This document shows positions 42,494 through 50,598 of a stretch of DNA of 64,000 nt, in pieces. Position 1 is the stretch's first letter, and every line of letters starts with the position of its first letter. The position numbers and the translations under genes are program-made. Under the pieces are notes generated by a model that worked only from the letters and a program-made list of their open reading frames with translations, was not told where the DNA came from and did not search any database. Location: assembly GCA_011390635.1 (NCBI GenBank), contig JAABSA010000005.1, forward strand, positions 62,001-126,000, read 5' to 3'. Source of the stretch: Desulfotignum sp. (GTDB taxonomy: Bacteria > Desulfobacterota > Desulfobacteria > Desulfobacterales > Desulfobacteraceae).

Positions 42494-42728
42494 TTTTTCA
42501 TGCCCTTTTTTATCTTTTCCTTGATACCGCATCATCCAGACAAGTGCAAGACCTGAGATCAACGGCATCCTTCCCAGGCGGTGGAATACGATGGTATTGG
42601 TATGACCCTGACGAAACTGCTGAAAAGAGATTGACATTACCGTTAATGCCTGTGAAAATGATATTTTGTTAAGCAGGTTACATCACTGGCTGTCAGCCGG
42701 ACAGGGCGTTTTGCTGGATCCATGCCCG

Positions 42729-42753
42729 CATGCCGGATGTATCGGCCGGCATG
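42729..42753 (+). promoter_or_regulatory. hairpin just before the ribosome site of the molybdopterin-binding gene
   Basis: CATGCCGG and CCGGCATG form a perfect 8-bp stem with a 9-nt loop, ending 3 bp before the AAGGAG at 42757. It could modulate translation from the TTG start. It does not match the Moco-riboswitch consensus as I know it. Confidence 0.35.
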
Positions 42754-42770
42754 ATAAAGGAGAACCATCC

Positions 42771-43811
42771 TTGAAATTTTACGAAAAAGACCGTATGCAG
42801 TCCCTGCCTGTCAGAGATGCTGTGGGGAAAATGCTGCTCCATGATATTACCCGGATCGTTCCGGATCTGTTTAAAGGGCCGGCCTTCAGAAAAGGCCATA
42901 TCATTACTGAGGCGGATGTGGATCAGCTGCTGGATCTGGGCAAACAGCATGTATATGTGGCCTGCCTCAACGGCGAAATCCATGAGAACGATGCTGCGCA
43001 GCGCATTGCCCGGGCCGCTGCTGGAAAAAATATTTTGCTTTCCGATCCCAAAGAGGGCAAGGTGGGCTTTACCGCAAAAACCTTTGGCCTGCTCAAGATA
43101 GATGTGGAAGGCCTGGCACAGCTTAACAGCATACCCGAAGTCATCTGTGCGACCATGCACACCAACCAGACCGTGGAGCCGGGGCAGGAGCTGGCCGGCA
43201 CCCGGGTGATCCCGCTGTCCATCGATGAAACCCATGTTATTGCAGCGGAAAAAGTGTGTGAAAAATTTTTTCCCATCATTGATATCACACCCTTTGTCCA
43301 GATGGATGTGGGGCTGGTGGTCACCGGATCGGAAGTGTTTTCCGGCCGGATCAGGGACGGATTCGGTCCTGTTGTCCGGAAAAAATTTGAAGCCCTGGGC
43401 TCCCGGATCATGGACAAAAAGATTGTGTCCGATGACATGGACATGACCGTGGCAGCCATTAAAGATTTTGTGGACAGCGGGGCAAAGTTTATCGCTGTCA
43501 CCGGGGGCATGTCTGTGGATCCCGATGACCTGACCCCGGCCGCCATCAAAAAAGCCGGGGGTGAGGTGGTTTTCTACGGGGCACCGGTACTGCCCGGCGC
43601 CATGTTTCTGCTGGCCTATATCAACGATGTGCCGGTGATCGGCCTGCCCGGATGTGTCATGTATTACCGGGCCTCCATTTTCGATCTGGTGGTACCCCGA
43701 CTGCTGGCCGGGGAAACTGTCACCCACAAAGAGATTATCCGCATGGGCCACGGGGGATTCTGCAGCGCCTGCAAAACCTGCCGGTATCCCCAATGCAGTT
43801 TTGGAAAATAA
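42771..43811 (+). CDS. molybdopterin-binding (MoeA/MogA-like) domain protein
   Basis: 346 residues from a TTG at 42771 that has AAGGAG 8 bp upstream; an internal ATG lacks a site. The central part has a MoCF-biosynthesis fold (VGLVVTGSEVFSGRIRDG, IVSDDMDMTVAAIKD, AVTGGMSVDPDDLTPAAI). It is not a complete MoeA. The C-terminus carries an unusual cysteine group (GFCSACKTCRYPQCSFGK) that could bind a cluster or zinc. It is 2 bp before the XdhC gene, so the two probably work together in delivering or modifying molybdenum cofactor. Confidence 0.85.
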   Translation: MKFYEKDRMQSLPVRDAVGKMLLHDITRIVPDLFKGPAFRKGHIITEADVDQLLDLGKQHVYVACLNGEIHENDAAQRIARAAAGKNILLSDPKEGKVGFTAKTFGLLKIDVEGLAQLNSIPEVICATMHTNQTVEPGQELAGTRVIPLSIDETHVIAAEKVCEKFFPIIDITPFVQMDVGLVVTGSEVFSGRIRDGFGPVVRKKFEALGSRIMDKKIVSDDMDMTVAAIKDFVDSGAKFIAVTGGMSVDPDDLTPAAIKKAGGEVVFYGAPVLPGAMFLLAYINDVPVIGLPGCVMYYRASIFDLVVPRLLAGETVTHKEIIRMGHGGFCSACKTCRYPQCSFGK

Positions 43812-43813
43812 AC

Positions 43814-44857
43814 ATGGAACTTTCAAACCAGCAGATACTGGACTGTCTGAAAAAAGGCGCCCCCTTTGCCCTGGCCGCCATCATCAGCCATAAAGGCTCC
43901 ACCCCCAGAACATCGGGTTCCCGCATGATCGTTCTATCGGACCGCACCATTTTGGGTACCATCGGCGGAGGACTGATAGAAGCGCAGGTCATGGACACCT
44001 GCCTGGAGCTTATTTCCCAAAAAAACTGCAGGATCCAGTCATTTATTCTGAACCAGGAACTGAAAAGTGGTCTGGACATGGTCTGCGGCGGCAGCCTCAC
44101 GGTTCTCATGGAAACCCTTGTGCCCGGTCCTGAATTGACCGCCGTATACAAGACCCTGGTTGATTTGGAACAGGCCGGCAAAAATGGGGTGCTGGTATCG
44201 AAAATTGTTGGCACCAGCCAGCGAGATTTCACCGTACAAAAAAGCATGGTGACACCTGATGCCACCATGACAGGATCTTGTGTCATCCCCAAACCCCTGC
44301 TGGATGAGATCTGTGACAATCGGTTTTCCGGCAGTTTTCCCATCTTCCATTCTGCGGGCCTGGAAGAATTCATCATCCAGCCCATGATTCCGGCTGATAC
44401 CATTTTTATTTTCGGTGCTGGACATGTGGGGTTCCAGCTGGCACAAACGGCACATCTCACGGGCTTTTCCACGGTAGTGATCGATGACCGGGAGGAATTT
44501 GCCAACCCAAAACGCTTTCCCCATGCCCGGTCAATCAAAGTAGTAATGGATTTTGCCGCAGCCTTTGACGGCCTGACCATTGATGACCATTCCTATATTG
44601 TCATTCTCACCCGGGGCCACGTCCATGACCAGACAGTTCTGGAAGCTGCCTTGCGCACCCATCCCGCCTATATCGGCATGATAGGCTCCCGGACAAAGCG
44701 GGACAAGATCTATGCCAATCTTCAGGAAAAAGGGATCTCTTCGGATGCTTTGAACACGGTCTATTCCCCCGTAGGCCTGTCCATAGGCGCCCAGACCCCG
44801 GCTGAAATCAGCATCAGCATTATCGCCCAGATCATCCAGATCCGGGCAGGGGCATAA
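43814..44857 (+). CDS. XdhC/CoxF-family molybdenum-cofactor maturation protein
   Basis: 347 residues from the ATG at 43814, immediately after the previous stop. An N-terminal XdhC/CoxI domain (GGGLIEAQVMDTCLEL, DMVCGGSLTVLMET) and a C-terminal Rossmann domain (IFGAGHVGFQLAQTAHLTGF, IGSRTKRDKIYANL) are present. XdhC proteins sulfurate and insert the cofactor into xanthine dehydrogenase-type enzymes. No such hydroxylase is encoded in the window. The pairing with the molybdopterin-binding protein suggests a target elsewhere. Confidence 0.9.
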   Translation: MELSNQQILDCLKKGAPFALAAIISHKGSTPRTSGSRMIVLSDRTILGTIGGGLIEAQVMDTCLELISQKNCRIQSFILNQELKSGLDMVCGGSLTVLMETLVPGPELTAVYKTLVDLEQAGKNGVLVSKIVGTSQRDFTVQKSMVTPDATMTGSCVIPKPLLDEICDNRFSGSFPIFHSAGLEEFIIQPMIPADTIFIFGAGHVGFQLAQTAHLTGFSTVVIDDREEFANPKRFPHARSIKVVMDFAAAFDGLTIDDHSYIVILTRGHVHDQTVLEAALRTHPAYIGMIGSRTKRDKIYANLQEKGISSDALNTVYSPVGLSIGAQTPAEISISIIAQIIQIRAGA

Positions 44858-44959: not shown

Positions 44960-45003
44960 TTGACAAGCCGCATATGACTATTTATCATATGAACAATTGT
45001 TCA
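44960..45003 (+). promoter_or_regulatory. sigma-70 promoter with an ArsR/SmtB-like palindromic operator
   Basis: TTGACA (44960) and TATCAT (44983) are exactly 17 bp apart. The perfect palindrome TGAACAATTGTTCA lies at 44990-45003, right over the expected transcription start. ArsR/SmtB family repressors bind such TGAACA-type repeats and release them on metal binding. The downstream gene is a Cu/Zn-efflux-type permease. Confidence 0.7.
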
Positions 45004-45030: not shown

Positions 45031-46140
45031 ATGGCGTGTTTCTTTATGGAAAAAACATTTGGTATTATGTATAATATTCTGGCCGCATCCTGGGACCTTT
45101 ACCTGGATGTGGCCATTTTCATGCTGTTCGGCTTTCTGGTTGCCGGACTGTTGTATGTCTTTTTCAAGACAGACCAGATCAAACGCCATCTGGGCACCGG
45201 AAAAATTAAACCGGTGTTTCTGTCCGCCCTTTTCGGCATTCCCCTTCCCTTGTGTTCCTGCGGTGTGGTGCCGGTTGCGGCCGGCCTTAAAAAACAAGGA
45301 GCCAACAGCGGGGCTGCCTTGTCTTTCATGATCGCCACCCCGGAATCCGGTGTGGATTCCATTGCGGTTTCCTGGGCTATGCTGGATCCGATCATGACCA
45401 TCATCCGACCGGTGGCAGGTTTTGTCACTGCCGTATCCACAGGGATTGCCCAAAATTTTTTCGGCAGTGACAAACCATCCCGGCAGGAACCTGCCAAAAA
45501 ACCCGACGGATGAGGCTGCGCTGCAGACACCTGTGCAGTTGCACAGCAACATGTTACCATCCCGCTTTTACACCGCCTGGCAAAGGGATTGACATACGCA
45601 TTCGGGGAACTGCTGGGTGATATTTCCAGGCCCTTTGTCATCGGTATTTTTATTGCCGGGGCCATCACCCTGATTTTTCCGGATGATCTTACCGCCCTGG
45701 CCAATGAACACAGCTTTTTATCCATGCTGGTCATGCTGGCCGCCGGCATCCCCATGTATGTGTGTGCGACTTCCTCAACCCCCATTGCCGCAGCCTTGAT
45801 CATCAAGGGGCTCAATCCCGGTGCAGCCCTGGTATTTCTGCTGGCCGGCCCGGCCACCAATGCCGCCACTATCAATATCGTTAAAAATATTTTCAATACC
45901 CGGGCCCTGGTGATCTATCTGTCCATGATTGCTGTCTGTTCCCTGGCCATGGGATTTTTTGTGGACTGGATCTATGCATTCATGCACCTTTCACCCACAG
46001 CCCTGGTGGGCCAGGCATCAGAGGTCATTCCCCATGCCCTTCAACTGACAGGTGCAGTGGTTCTGACCATCCTGCTGGGGTGCAACGGTATAGTACGCCT
46101 CAGACGGATGATCCAGACCCGCCGCCAGGTCCACGCCTAA
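45031..46140 (+). CDS. SO_0444-like Cu/Zn efflux permease, probable selenoprotein with in-frame TGA
   Basis: One frame of 369 codons with a TGA at 45511 (codon 161). The first half is a membrane permease with LCSCGVVPVAAGLKKQGANS. The second half resumes in the same frame with GLTYAFGELLGDI and has CATSSTPIAAALIIKGLNPG. The TGA lies in a cytoplasmic loop where homologues that I recall have Cys-rich metal sites; here it is followed by GCAADTC. A SECIS-like hairpin follows the TGA at the proper distance. I read it as Sec161. The start could be 45031, 45046 or 45067. A nonsense mutation splitting the gene is the alternative. Confidence 0.75.
45511..45546 (+). promoter_or_regulatory. SECIS-like element: UGA plus downstream hairpin
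   Basis: After TGA (45511-45513), 23 nt separate the codon from the loop of a perfect hairpin: CTGTGC (45531-45536), loop AGTT, GCACAG (45541-45546). A G in the second loop position and a loop 16-37 nt after the UGA fit the rules for bacterial SECIS elements. Confidence 0.7.
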
Positions 46141-46232: not shown

Positions 46233-46272
46233 ATTGGTGGCATAACTGCAACCGTATCCTATGGAGGGTTTT

Positions 46273-46962
46273 TTGGACATTCACCTGTCGGATATCGATA
46301 AATCCTTTGATGACAGCGGCAGCCCCAGAATTATATTTCAAAAGGCTTCCGCCCGGTTCCAATCAGGCAAATTCTGTGTGATTGTAGGAAAGAGCGGGGT
46401 GGGAAAAAGTTCTCTTCTCAACCTTATATCCGGCATTGATCTGCCGGACAAAGGAAGTATCCTGGTGGGAGGCCACCGCATTTGTACCATGACCGATACA
46501 GCCAGAACCCTTTTCAGGCGGCGGCACATCGGCTTTATCTACCAGTTTTTCAATTTGATCCCCGTATTGACTGTTCTGGAGAATGTCACCCTTATTGCCG
46601 AATTGGACAAGGCACCCAAAAAAACTTACATGAAACAAGCCCGGGCATTGCTGGAACAGGTAGGGCTCTGGGACCGGCGCCATGACTTTCCCGAGACCCT
46701 GTCCGGCGGCGAGCAGCAGCGGGTGGCCATTGTCAGAGCACTGGTCAATGATCCGGATCTGGTGCTGGCGGATGAGCCCACCGGTAATCTGGACCAGGAA
46801 ACCGGTACAAAGGTCATGGAAATGATATCAGACCTGACCCGCAAACAAAACAAGACCCTGGTCATGGTGACCCACAGCCCGGATGCCATGGCCTGGGCAG
46901 ACCAGATTTTTTCGGTGGGCAGCGGAACCCTGACACCCATGGACACGCACACCCATGGGTAA
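46273..46962 (+). CDS. ABC transporter ATP-binding protein (LolD/MacB type)
   Basis: 229 residues from a TTG at 46273, chosen because GGAGG (46263-46267) lies 5 bp upstream; an ATG at 46261 would have no ribosome site. Walker A GKSGVGKS, Q loop near YQFFNLIP, signature LSGGEQQRVAI, Walker B VLADEPTGNLD and His switch VTHSP are all intact. It overlaps the permease gene by 8 bp and should energise that protein at the inner membrane. The cluster with AttH and an FtsX permease matches Att-type ABC systems. Confidence 0.93.
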   Translation: MDIHLSDIDKSFDDSGSPRIIFQKASARFQSGKFCVIVGKSGVGKSSLLNLISGIDLPDKGSILVGGHRICTMTDTARTLFRRRHIGFIYQFFNLIPVLTVLENVTLIAELDKAPKKTYMKQARALLEQVGLWDRRHDFPETLSGGEQQRVAIVRALVNDPDLVLADEPTGNLDQETGTKVMEMISDLTRKQNKTLVMVTHSPDAMAWADQIFSVGSGTLTPMDTHTHG

Positions 46963-49483
46963 CCATCCCCTGATTCTGGCCTGTCTGCGATACAGCCGCC
47001 GGCACCTTATGCGGACCCTGCTTCTGATTTTCGGCATTGCCATGGGGGTGGCCGGAGTGGTAGCCATCGATATTGCGAAAACGTCGGTGGAAAAATCATT
47101 TGAACTGTCCACTCAGGCCCTGGTTTCCCGGTCCACCCACCAGATTGTGGGAACCGGTCTTGAGATCCCTCAGGATCTGTTTTCCGATATCCGGACAAAT
47201 CTGGGCATCCACCGGTCAGCTCCGGTAATTTCCCGCCATGTAAAAATCGCTGCATTTGATGACCGGATCGTCACTTTCATGGGGGTGGACCCATTTTCAG
47301 AAAACCATTTCAGGCAGATGACCCTCCAGACCCGAAACCTGGATCTGTCCGGGGTCATGACCGGTTCATCCGGGGTGTTTATCTCCAGAGATCTTGCACA
47401 GCAGTTCGGCCTGGACATCGGCGCCACCCTGGAAATCTCTTTTGGCAGCCGCACAGCAGCAGTTACCATTGCCGGATTTTTAGACAGCAGTGATGATACA
47501 GCAAGGCAGATGCTGAGCGGTGTGGTGGTCACCGATATTTCCCTGGCCCAGGAAATCCTTGACATGGGGGACACCATCACCCGCATCGATCTGATCCTGG
47601 ACCGGGAGACAACCGCAGAAAAGATCCGGGACCTTTTGGCAGAAGGCCTGTTCCTGGTTGAAACCAATCAACAGAACCTTGCGGTGCGCGGGCTGTCCCA
47701 CTCCTTTGAAACCAGTTTGACCGCCTTTTCCATGCTGGCCCTGTTCATGGGCATATTTCTCATCTACAACACCGTATCTTTTTCCGTTACCCGTCGGCAC
47801 AGGCTCCATGGCATTCTGCGGGCCATCGGTGCCACACGGTCCAATATCTTTTTCACGGTAATGTCAGAGGTCATGGTGTATGCCGTGATCGGATCCGTTT
47901 TCGGGGTCCTGCTGGGCATCCTGCTGGGCAAAGGAGCGGTTCAGGCGGTGGTCGCCACCGTATCAGAAATGTATTTCACCCTGACCGTCAGCCGGACCCA
48001 TATTTCCGGATTCACCCTTGCCAAGGGCTTGCTGGCCGGCATGCTGGCCGCTTTTGTATCCGGTTTTTTTCCGGCCCTTACCGCTGCCGGGACCCGGCCT
48101 GTCAGCCTCATGCACCGCACCGGATCTGAACAGGGATTCAACCGGGTGATTCCGGCACTGTTCATCTGGGGGCTGTTCCTCCTGGCGGCAGCCGGTCTGT
48201 TGATGCGGACTGTCACCCCGCATGCCGGATATGATTTTACAGGGCTGTTCATGATATTTTTCGGTGCCGCCCTGCTGACCCCCCTGCTCATCCGAATCAT
48301 GGTCCGAATGTTACTGGCGGCAGGTATGGGAACCTTAGGGATAATGGTCAAAATGGCCCTGCGAAACATCATCCGTTCTTTGCGCCAGACCAGCGTGCTC
48401 ATGGCCTCCCTCATGGTGGTCACATCAGTATACATCGGCATCGAGGTGATGACAGGCAGTTTTCGTCTCTCCATCATCCAGTGGGTGGATGACCATATCG
48501 GCGGCGATATCCACGTGTCATCCGCTGACCAGCTCAACCCGGGCCTGGACCCGGACTTTGTGGCAGATATCCAGGCCCTGCCCGGGATAAACGCCTTGTC
48601 CGCCTATAACATCCATCCGGTGTTTTCCCGCTCTTCCGGCAGGGTGCACCTGTTTTCCTACCGGTCGGACCAGTCGGTCAAGCGCTGGTCCTGGACAGCG
48701 GCACCGGAAGAGGAGCTGGGCGGCCTGCTGGAAAACGGATGGATCTTTGTATCGGAAATCTTTGCCCGGCAACATCATGTGCTGCCCCGGCAGGGGGCAG
48801 TGGCTGTTCTGGAAACAGACAAAGGCCCGGTTTCCTTTAAAGTGGCCGGCATTTTCAGGGATTTTTTCATGGGCGGCGGCCGGGCCGTGGTTTCCTCCCA
48901 AACCATGAAAAATTTCTGGGGCCACGATGACATTACGGCCCTGCAGCTGTTTCTGGCTTCCGGCACCCCGGCGGCACCGGTCATGGATACTATCCGTCAG
49001 CAGATTCCTTCCCAAGCCTTGATAGAGGTCAGATCCGGGGCTGACATCAAAAAAAGCATCCTGGCGGTGTTTGACAACACCTTTATCATCACTTCCGCAT
49101 TGCAGATACTCACCGCTATCGTGGCGCTTACCGGCATTTTGAATGCGGTAATGGCCCTGCTGCTGGAACGTAGTCGGGAAATAGGTATCCTCAGGGCTTG
49201 CGGCACCCGGACCGGCCAGGTGAAACGGCTTTTGCTCCATGAATGCTTCTTTTACGGTCTGATCTCCGGGATCATGGCTATCCCTCTGGGAACCGCCCTG
49301 TCCTGGGTGCTGATCCATATCATCAACCAGCGCTCCTTTGGCTGGACCTATGACATGGTTATCACACCCGGCGTATTTTTCCAGGCAATCCTGCTGTCAT
49401 CCGCAGCAGCCCTTGCTGCCGGGATATTTCCGGCCCTGGCCGCAGGCAGAACCCATATTCCCACCGCCCTGCACATGGAGTAA
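46955..49483 (+). CDS. ABC transporter permease with two FtsX domains
   Basis: 842 residues. There is an N-terminal membrane segment (RTLLLIFGIAMGVAGVVAIDIA), an extracytoplasmic MacB-like domain, and a first FtsX block of three membrane segments (about 255-400). A second half repeats a membrane anchor, a periplasmic domain (about 520-690) and a final FtsX block (about 700-842). The duplicated FtsX arrangement is that of large single-chain permeases that work with one ATPase and often export lipids or lipoproteins. It is followed 2 bp later by the AttH-like lipoprotein. Confidence 0.9.
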   Translation: MGNHPLILACLRYSRRHLMRTLLLIFGIAMGVAGVVAIDIAKTSVEKSFELSTQALVSRSTHQIVGTGLEIPQDLFSDIRTNLGIHRSAPVISRHVKIAAFDDRIVTFMGVDPFSENHFRQMTLQTRNLDLSGVMTGSSGVFISRDLAQQFGLDIGATLEISFGSRTAAVTIAGFLDSSDDTARQMLSGVVVTDISLAQEILDMGDTITRIDLILDRETTAEKIRDLLAEGLFLVETNQQNLAVRGLSHSFETSLTAFSMLALFMGIFLIYNTVSFSVTRRHRLHGILRAIGATRSNIFFTVMSEVMVYAVIGSVFGVLLGILLGKGAVQAVVATVSEMYFTLTVSRTHISGFTLAKGLLAGMLAAFVSGFFPALTAAGTRPVSLMHRTGSEQGFNRVIPALFIWGLFLLAAAGLLMRTVTPHAGYDFTGLFMIFFGAALLTPLLIRIMVRMLLAAGMGTLGIMVKMALRNIIRSLRQTSVLMASLMVVTSVYIGIEVMTGSFRLSIIQWVDDHIGGDIHVSSADQLNPGLDPDFVADIQALPGINALSAYNIHPVFSRSSGRVHLFSYRSDQSVKRWSWTAAPEEELGGLLENGWIFVSEIFARQHHVLPRQGAVAVLETDKGPVSFKVAGIFRDFFMGGGRAVVSSQTMKNFWGHDDITALQLFLASGTPAAPVMDTIRQQIPSQALIEVRSGADIKKSILAVFDNTFIITSALQILTAIVALTGILNAVMALLLERSREIGILRACGTRTGQVKRLLLHECFFYGLISGIMAIPLGTALSWVLIHIINQRSFGWTYDMVITPGVFFQAILLSSAAALAAGIFPALAAGRTHIPTALHME

Positions 49484-49485
49484 AC

Positions 49486-50598
49486 ATGCGATATTTATCT
49501 GTCATATCCGTTTGCCTGACCGTGATCCTCATGGGAATTTTCCTTCGGGGCTGTGCCCCACAGGAGGAGGACCGCATCGACATTGCACAGGCCCTGTCCG
49601 ATAACCAGGACATTGACTGTTTTGAAACGGTCACCAGTCCCAGATCCCTGATTTTCCCGGAAGATGCCGGTCCCCATGAAAATTTCCGTACCGAGTGGTG
49701 GTATTACACCGGCAACCTGACCACTGACCAGGGCCGGCATTTCGGGTATCAGCTCACCTTTTTCCGCCAGGCCCTGTCCTGTGAACCCGTGACAGGGAAT
49801 TCCCGATGGCGGACCCGGCAGCTGATTTTTGCCCACTTTGCCGTCACCGATACCCAAAACAAGACGTTTCATGCCTTTTCCCGCATGAACCGCCAAAGTT
49901 TAGGGATTGCCGGAAGCCAGGCGCAGCCTTTCGCGGTATGGATCGACAACTGGCAGGTCAAAGAAACCGGATCACACCTGGCCCTGGATGCCGTATCAGA
50001 TGATATCCGCCTGTCTTTAACCCTGACACAAAAAAAGCCCCCCATTCTCCAGGGGGACAGGGGATTCTCCCGAAAAGGACCCGGAGCCGGCAATGCCTCT
50101 TTCTACTTTTCCCTGCCCCGGCTGCACACACAGGGCTTCATCACCATCGGAGAAAACCGCTGCCAGGTGACCGGCAACTCCTGGTTTGATCATGAATGGA
50201 GCACCACATTGCTGGGAGAGGATGTCCGGGGATGGGACTGGTTTTCCGCCCACCTGGATGACGGCCGGGACCTGATGGTCTGCCGTATCAGAAAAGCGGA
50301 CGGCACATCCAACGGATTTGGATTCGGGAGCATCTCTTTTGCCGACGGCACCTATGTGATCCTGTCGGAAACCGATTTTGCCCTGACCCCCAAGGCCCGC
50401 TGGAAAAGCCCGGACACAGGTAAACGCTATCCAGTCCAATGGCAGATCCGCATCCCGGAACACGACCTGGACCTGTCAGTCACCCCGGTGATAGACAAAC
50501 AGGAACATACCCATGCCTTTGCATACTGGGAAGGGGCCATGCGCTTTTCCGGCACCGGTGTCCAGGGCATGGGATACCTGGAAATGACCGGTTATTGA
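49486..50598 (+). CDS. AttH/CrtC-like lipoprotein (lipocalin-like)
   Basis: 370 residues. A lipoprotein signal sequence with lipobox LRGC (cysteine about residue 23) is followed by two lipocalin-like beta domains with the AttH/CrtC signature (FRTEWWYYTGNL, GNSWFDHEWSTTLLGEDVRGWDWF). CrtC members hydrate carotenoids; the AttH branch accompanies an ABC transporter, as here. No carotenoid genes are in the window, so an AttH role with the ABC transporter is more likely. It is probably attached to a membrane facing the periplasm. Confidence 0.88.
   Translation: MRYLSVISVCLTVILMGIFLRGCAPQEEDRIDIAQALSDNQDIDCFETVTSPRSLIFPEDAGPHENFRTEWWYYTGNLTTDQGRHFGYQLTFFRQALSCEPVTGNSRWRTRQLIFAHFAVTDTQNKTFHAFSRMNRQSLGIAGSQAQPFAVWIDNWQVKETGSHLALDAVSDDIRLSLTLTQKKPPILQGDRGFSRKGPGAGNASFYFSLPRLHTQGFITIGENRCQVTGNSWFDHEWSTTLLGEDVRGWDWFSAHLDDGRDLMVCRIRKADGTSNGFGFGSISFADGTYVILSETDFALTPKARWKSPDTGKRYPVQWQIRIPEHDLDLSVTPVIDKQEHTHAFAYWEGAMRFSGTGVQGMGYLEMTGY

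Follow-up and report, generated by a model that had tools for sequence, protein, structure and literature searches.

Is a lone TGA in the middle of a metal permease gene of the sulfate-reducing bacterium Desulfotignum the end of a broken reading frame or a codon for selenocysteine (Sec), and, in the latter case, what would Sec do in a transporter? The question is raised by the + strand frame 45031-46140 of the window, i.e. the whole 64,000-nt stretch of DNA that was analysed. A single internal TGA (45511-45513) splits this frame into 160 codons on its 5' side and 208 codons on its 3' side, and the peptide GCAADTC is encoded immediately 3' of it, where the original prediction of a selenoprotein had placed it. 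Frames joined by a TGA are common by chance, with dozens in the window. Annotation can also split such genes: without recoding of the TGA, this one reads as two truncated permeases.

The interrupted gene and its family

Read through the TGA, the whole protein matches the profile of the SO_0444 family Cu/Zn efflux transporters (NF033936) over positions 1-347 of 351 with 382.7 bits (E 1.6e-114). This score lies above the curated cut-off of 300 bits and bears out the proposed assignment to a metal-efflux permease family. The Pfam family ArsP_1 (PF03773) is matched with 154.8 bits when the TGA is read through. Taken alone, the first half (residues 20-153) scores 192 bits over NF033936 positions 1-134, and the second half 193 bits over positions 175-347. 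The two ORFs that had been joined in one frame across the TGA therefore match one profile in consecutive register and, on these matches, are parts of a single SO_0444 Cu/Zn efflux protein. The second-best profile is that of SaoE (NF040736), with 177.6 bits for a cut-off of 325. Under Cu and Zn stress SO_0444 itself is needed, as seen with complementation (PMC3219624), and Cd and Cu induce a homologue in Nitratiruptor (PMC10092412).

Translation more likely starts at ATG 45046 than at ATG 45031, because in a comparison with Desulfotignum relatives the former is kept by the congeners and the latter is not. The putative selenoprotein gene would then cover 45046-46140 (+) and encode 364 residues with Sec at position 156. 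The 369-residue protein first proposed retains its single frame with the TGA and probably loses its start. Residue numbers given below (U161, C163, C168, C75, C77 and C245) are counted from 45031, the TGA being residue 161 of this long frame. Upstream of the permease gene, the region 42666-44857 (+) encodes a molybdopterin-binding protein and an XdhC/CoxI-like protein, in an order identical in the Desulfotignum relative L051. Downstream (46261-50598, +), genes for an ABC ATPase and an FtsX-type permease, both found at the same place in L051, are followed by one for a secreted hydrolase-like protein.

The gene is preceded by a promoter-like TTGACA - 17 nt - TATCAT (44960-44988, +; TATCAT at 44983). 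At the end of this -10 box, and overlapping the promoter, stands the palindrome ATATGAACAATTGTTCA (44987-45003, +), which is kept in all five Desulfotignum relatives (L051-L055) and in the distant L098. We take its form to be that of the operators of ArsR/SmtB metal sensors. In Desulfobacula (L062), a gene of the ArsR/SmtB family coding for a CVCD motif is located just upstream of the permease gene (NF033788, 97.2 bits, cut-off 55). As far as sequence can tell, the palindrome and this neighbour fit a metal-induced exporter.

Conservation of the TGA codon

Relatives were drawn from 194 genomes of the order, from a named-genome collection and from 395 genomes of the phylum; the window's own gene is L021 in these comparisons. 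The codon is likewise TGA in four Desulfotignum relatives (L051, L052, L054 and L055); L053, also from Desulfotignum, has TGC in its place. The loop TGA is found in addition in about 17 Desulfobacterales sequences of the same clade. Counted by rows, the surrounding clade (Desulfotignum, Desulfobacula and kin, starred in the tree) carries it in 22 out of 28, and a Cys codon stands in its place in five others (TGC in L053, L066 and L022, TGT in L070 and L073). Homologues with Cys at the Sec position, proposed as a check of the selenoprotein reading, thus exist in the immediate clade. Additional TGAs close to the C-terminal ends of L054, L111 and L114 were excluded as probable true stops. When L021 is compared with L051, codon positions 1/2/3 differ 19/9/47 times before the TGA and 25/13/66 times after it. 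Since third-position changes dominate on both sides, the part after the TGA appears to be under the same protein-level constraint as the part before it. A chance joining of two frames is ruled out by the conservation.

The SECIS hairpin

The candidate SECIS hairpin, CTGTGC-AGTT-GCACAG, is located at 45531-45546 (+), with its loop at 45537-45540. From the TGA it is 17 nt to the start of the hairpin and 23 nt to that of the loop, and the second loop base is a G, all as predicted. The evidential weight given to this one sequence was overstated: synonymous-codon shuffles of the same peptide equal its score in 8% of draws, and the single-sequence hairpin was dropped as a proof of Sec. A scan of the 64,000-nt window against Rfam returned no RNA family at gathering score.

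Across 19 sequences in the same register, two-sided changes are observed in 6 of the 7 pairs of the hairpin, e.g. GGTGT-AGTT-ACACC in L056 and GATAC-AGTT-GTATC in L023 as compared with GTGC-AGTT-GCAC. Cells with a two-sided change number 12 for a shuffled mean of 5.0, and none of 500 shuffles was as high, although these figures overstate independence, since each cell stands for a sequence rather than an event. Pairing holds in 82% of the cells versus 9-62% for slid partners, and the true register beats all slid versions. Third positions hardly vary in the hairpin codons TGT-GCA-GTT-GCA, being kept in 19, 19, 18 and 17 of the 19 sequences, respectively. In Cys relatives the encoded peptide CAVA is replaced by CAAG, CALA, CTVI or CAAV, and no SECIS-like hairpin was found in the Cys relative L053, which argues that CAVA is probably kept by the RNA rather than by the protein. 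The Cys relatives L070 and L073 are still able to form a hairpin, in a different register. Because the TGA is conserved, relatives have Cys, the hairpin covaries and codon selection is equal on both sides, the case for a selenoprotein goes beyond chance. The TGA at 45511-45513 very probably encodes Sec, as had been proposed.

Selenium machinery of the genome

The genome assembly (4.09 Mb in 98 contigs, 96.4% complete) contains selA (601.4 bits), selB (341.7 bits) and selD (369.5 bits), all above cut-off in profile searches. Its selD has an internal TGA of its own (L196, contig C26). The formate dehydrogenase FdhA (L140, -, contig C26) carries DHCARLUHSST, the textbook motif of Sec formate dehydrogenases. 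Three of the four genes selA, selB, selC and selD, whose presence had been suggested as a check, are therefore in place; the tRNA-Sec was not found in this assembly. Its best Rfam score was 40 versus 47, a strict anticodon/T-arm pattern returned nothing in the assembly, and the candidates L013-L020 turned out to be ordinary tRNAs by ARAGORN. The tRNA-Sec was detected at 74-77 bits in 8 of the 12 other genomes of the genus. A locus beside it, which we read as an M20-type peptidase, is present in the seven tRNA-bearing congeners that were searched, whereas this genome and the four congeners without the tRNA lack the locus as well. An assembly or binning gap is the simplest explanation for this joint absence. 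At the tRNA-Sec locus (L134:1500-1600), some of the adjoining sequence recurs in G201, so that the site may be a mobile-DNA hot spot that breaks assemblies.

Two other readings of the TGA have to be considered at this point. It could be a true stop or an assembly error, the halves then being a broken gene or two subunits, and this would agree with the occurrence of only one TGA, with a TTG start candidate for the second half at 45589 and with the tRNA-Sec missing from the assembly. Many independent assemblies have TGA at the same codon, however, relatives have Cys there, the frame after the TGA is constrained and the SECIS covaries, all of which makes such an interruption very improbable. That the TGA is decoded as a different amino acid, through a code change or suppression, is less probable still in view of the Cys codons in relatives, the covarying SECIS and the Sec machinery of the genome.

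Predicted structure of the permease

In the AlphaFold model (pLDDT 87.9, pTM 0.86), an unstructured linker joins two helical halves. As anticipated, the TGA falls in the Cys-rich loop between the halves (residues 145-178; 45463-45564, +), which includes U161, C163 and C168. This flexible loop is unstructured between helices 120-144 and 179-215 of the model, with pLDDT below 50 at residues 156-171. The membrane motif C-S-C (C75 and C77; 45253-45261, +) is invariant. The second half contains an invariant Cys as well (C245, in YVCATSSTP; 45763-45765, +; an invariant column in 73 sequences), pseudo-symmetric to PLCSCG. In the model, C75-S76-C77 and C245 are placed at equivalent helix breaks (H60-69/H76-88 and H228-239/H246-258, respectively), and the two motifs probably form the transport site of an inverted repeat.

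By sequence, the protein matched no solved structure, and a Foldseek search with the model gave no match under E 0.001. VIA-align ranked ArsB first (Z 13.0, 282 residues, rmsd 5.8), its rows down to Z 7.6 coming mostly from the CNT family or the ion-transporter superfamily before a drop to 4.6, and helical models of unrelated proteins can reach such Z by chance.

Two Sec sites across the family

A tree of 137 proteins was built without the two Sec sites. Of these homologues, 36 have Sec at the first Cys of the membrane motif PLCSCG (C75), where the protein of the window has Cys, and 30 have it in the loop. Both sites carry Sec in two of the 137, namely L023 (1501-2577, -), from a genome of the window's family, and L178 (1474-2436, +), from another family of the phylum. 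In both, TGA occurs at PLUSCG and in the loop, each time followed by a SECIS-like hairpin. Changes required by the tree number 16 for the membrane site and 10 for the loop, gains not being distinguishable from losses and fewer changes being forced by the starred branches. The loop Sec is found as GGUGC in the window's clade, SGGUGC in L105, TUxxxxCSCG in L096, L098 and L178, and CGUP in L159, L160, L173 and L174. A SECIS-like hairpin is present in each loop-Sec lineage, single hairpins being weak evidence. As aligned here, loop Sec is present in several separate lineages of the family. The four CGUP sequences form a separate lineage of the phylum, with the loop Sec as GCGUP and a different Cys spacing. 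Neither Cys nor Sec is found in the loop of 7 of the 137 homologues, and loop thiols therefore cannot be essential for transport family-wide.

Proposed function and alternatives

The best explanation, which we hold to be quite likely, is a soft-metal exporter of the SO_0444 family in which UGA is read as Sec, the loop Sec serves as a metal trap and expression is metal-induced. Metal would probably switch on expression by way of an ArsR/SmtB-type repressor bound at the promoter palindrome, and translation through the UGA, with the aid of the SECIS hairpin, would yield a soft-metal exporter in the inner membrane. The permease halves would make an ArsB-like fold, with C-S-C and C245 as the predicted transport site. 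Sec, C163 and C168 would constitute a high-affinity selenolate/thiolate trap for a soft ion (Cu(I), Cd, Zn or Hg), and the trapped ion would be handed from the loop to the transport site. The basic residues of the loop suggest that capture would take place on the cytoplasmic side. The Sec coding, the family, the loop position and the exchange of Cys and Sec are results of the computation; the role of the loop is likely the capture of soft metal for export.

The loop Sec could instead be a redox switch or a thiol protector and no metal ligand, a Sec-Cys pair with C163 or C168 sensing sulfide or oxidant and gating the exporter. The host is an anaerobe, and most of the clade has the U-x-C spacing (UGC), which resembles that of redox-active selenylsulfide pairs. 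We nevertheless consider such a switch unlikely, as the spacings of the loop Sec differ in other lineages (UADNHCSCG, CGUP), L061 and L065 keep Sec though the cysteine of UGC is lost, and the family is linked to metal stress (PMC3219624; PMC10092412). A different doubt concerns the substrate, which could be organomercurials or arsenicals, as for SaoE- or ArsP-like proteins, rather than Cu, Zn or Cd. SaoE is the second-best model, ArsB the closest solved fold, and other Sec transporters are tied to Hg and As (PMC13188914). Against this rather improbable substrate range, the SaoE cut-off is missed and that of NF033936 is passed, and in the reading frames flanking the gene in L051 no set of sao-like genes could be recognised.

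The metal-trap reading can be extended to the family as a whole, which would have gained Sec repeatedly at the membrane motif and at the metal-capturing loop, in some members at both, a selenolate relay passing soft metal from the cytoplasm across the membrane. This extension is tentative and somewhat doubtful. The well-studied roles of Sec lie mostly in redox catalysis; if the relay is true, Sec would have a role in transport instead. With Cys and Sec exchanged at putative ligand positions, in many lineages and at both sites, the natural series Cys/Cys, Sec/Cys, Cys/Sec and Sec/Sec could test selenium as a metal ligand in transport. As evidence for Sec in the family the protein is ordinary; as a hint of Sec as a transport ligand it is more interesting.

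Comparison with known systems

The original prediction stated that no Sec-containing member of this family had been described, which does not hold: a 2026 review already lists the SO_0444 family Cu/Zn efflux transporters (NF033936) among selenoproteins, with motif UxC, one Sec and GenBank annotation (PMC13188914). The family has a single entry there, exemplified by WP_014809615.1, and different Sec positions are counted as separate subfamilies (PMC13188914). The listed motif UxC is compatible with both PLUSC and the loop UGC. With its one entry and one Sec, the review's list lacks one of the two sites as well as the double-Sec proteins. Literature searches returned no description of the loop Sec position nor of this protein in Desulfotignum. 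A family with two Sec sites, at the membrane PL(U/C)SCG and in a disordered loop, appears to be new.

Among known transporters, SaoE (NF040736) is a homologous permease and the second-best profile, but at 177.6 bits versus a cut-off of 325 the protein is no member by that test. The predicted fold aligns with the arsenite exporter ArsB (ion-transporter superfamily) over 282 residues, at a Z near chance level for helical models; identity is 9%, and the CSC motif and the Cys/Sec loop differ. The closest likeness is to the Sec members of the SO_0444 family (PMC13188914), with which the protein shares a whole-length family match and the occurrence of Sec in the family. In contrast to the commonest Sec position in the sample (PLUSCG), Sec is located here in the loop that joins the two halves, and Cys occupies the membrane site.
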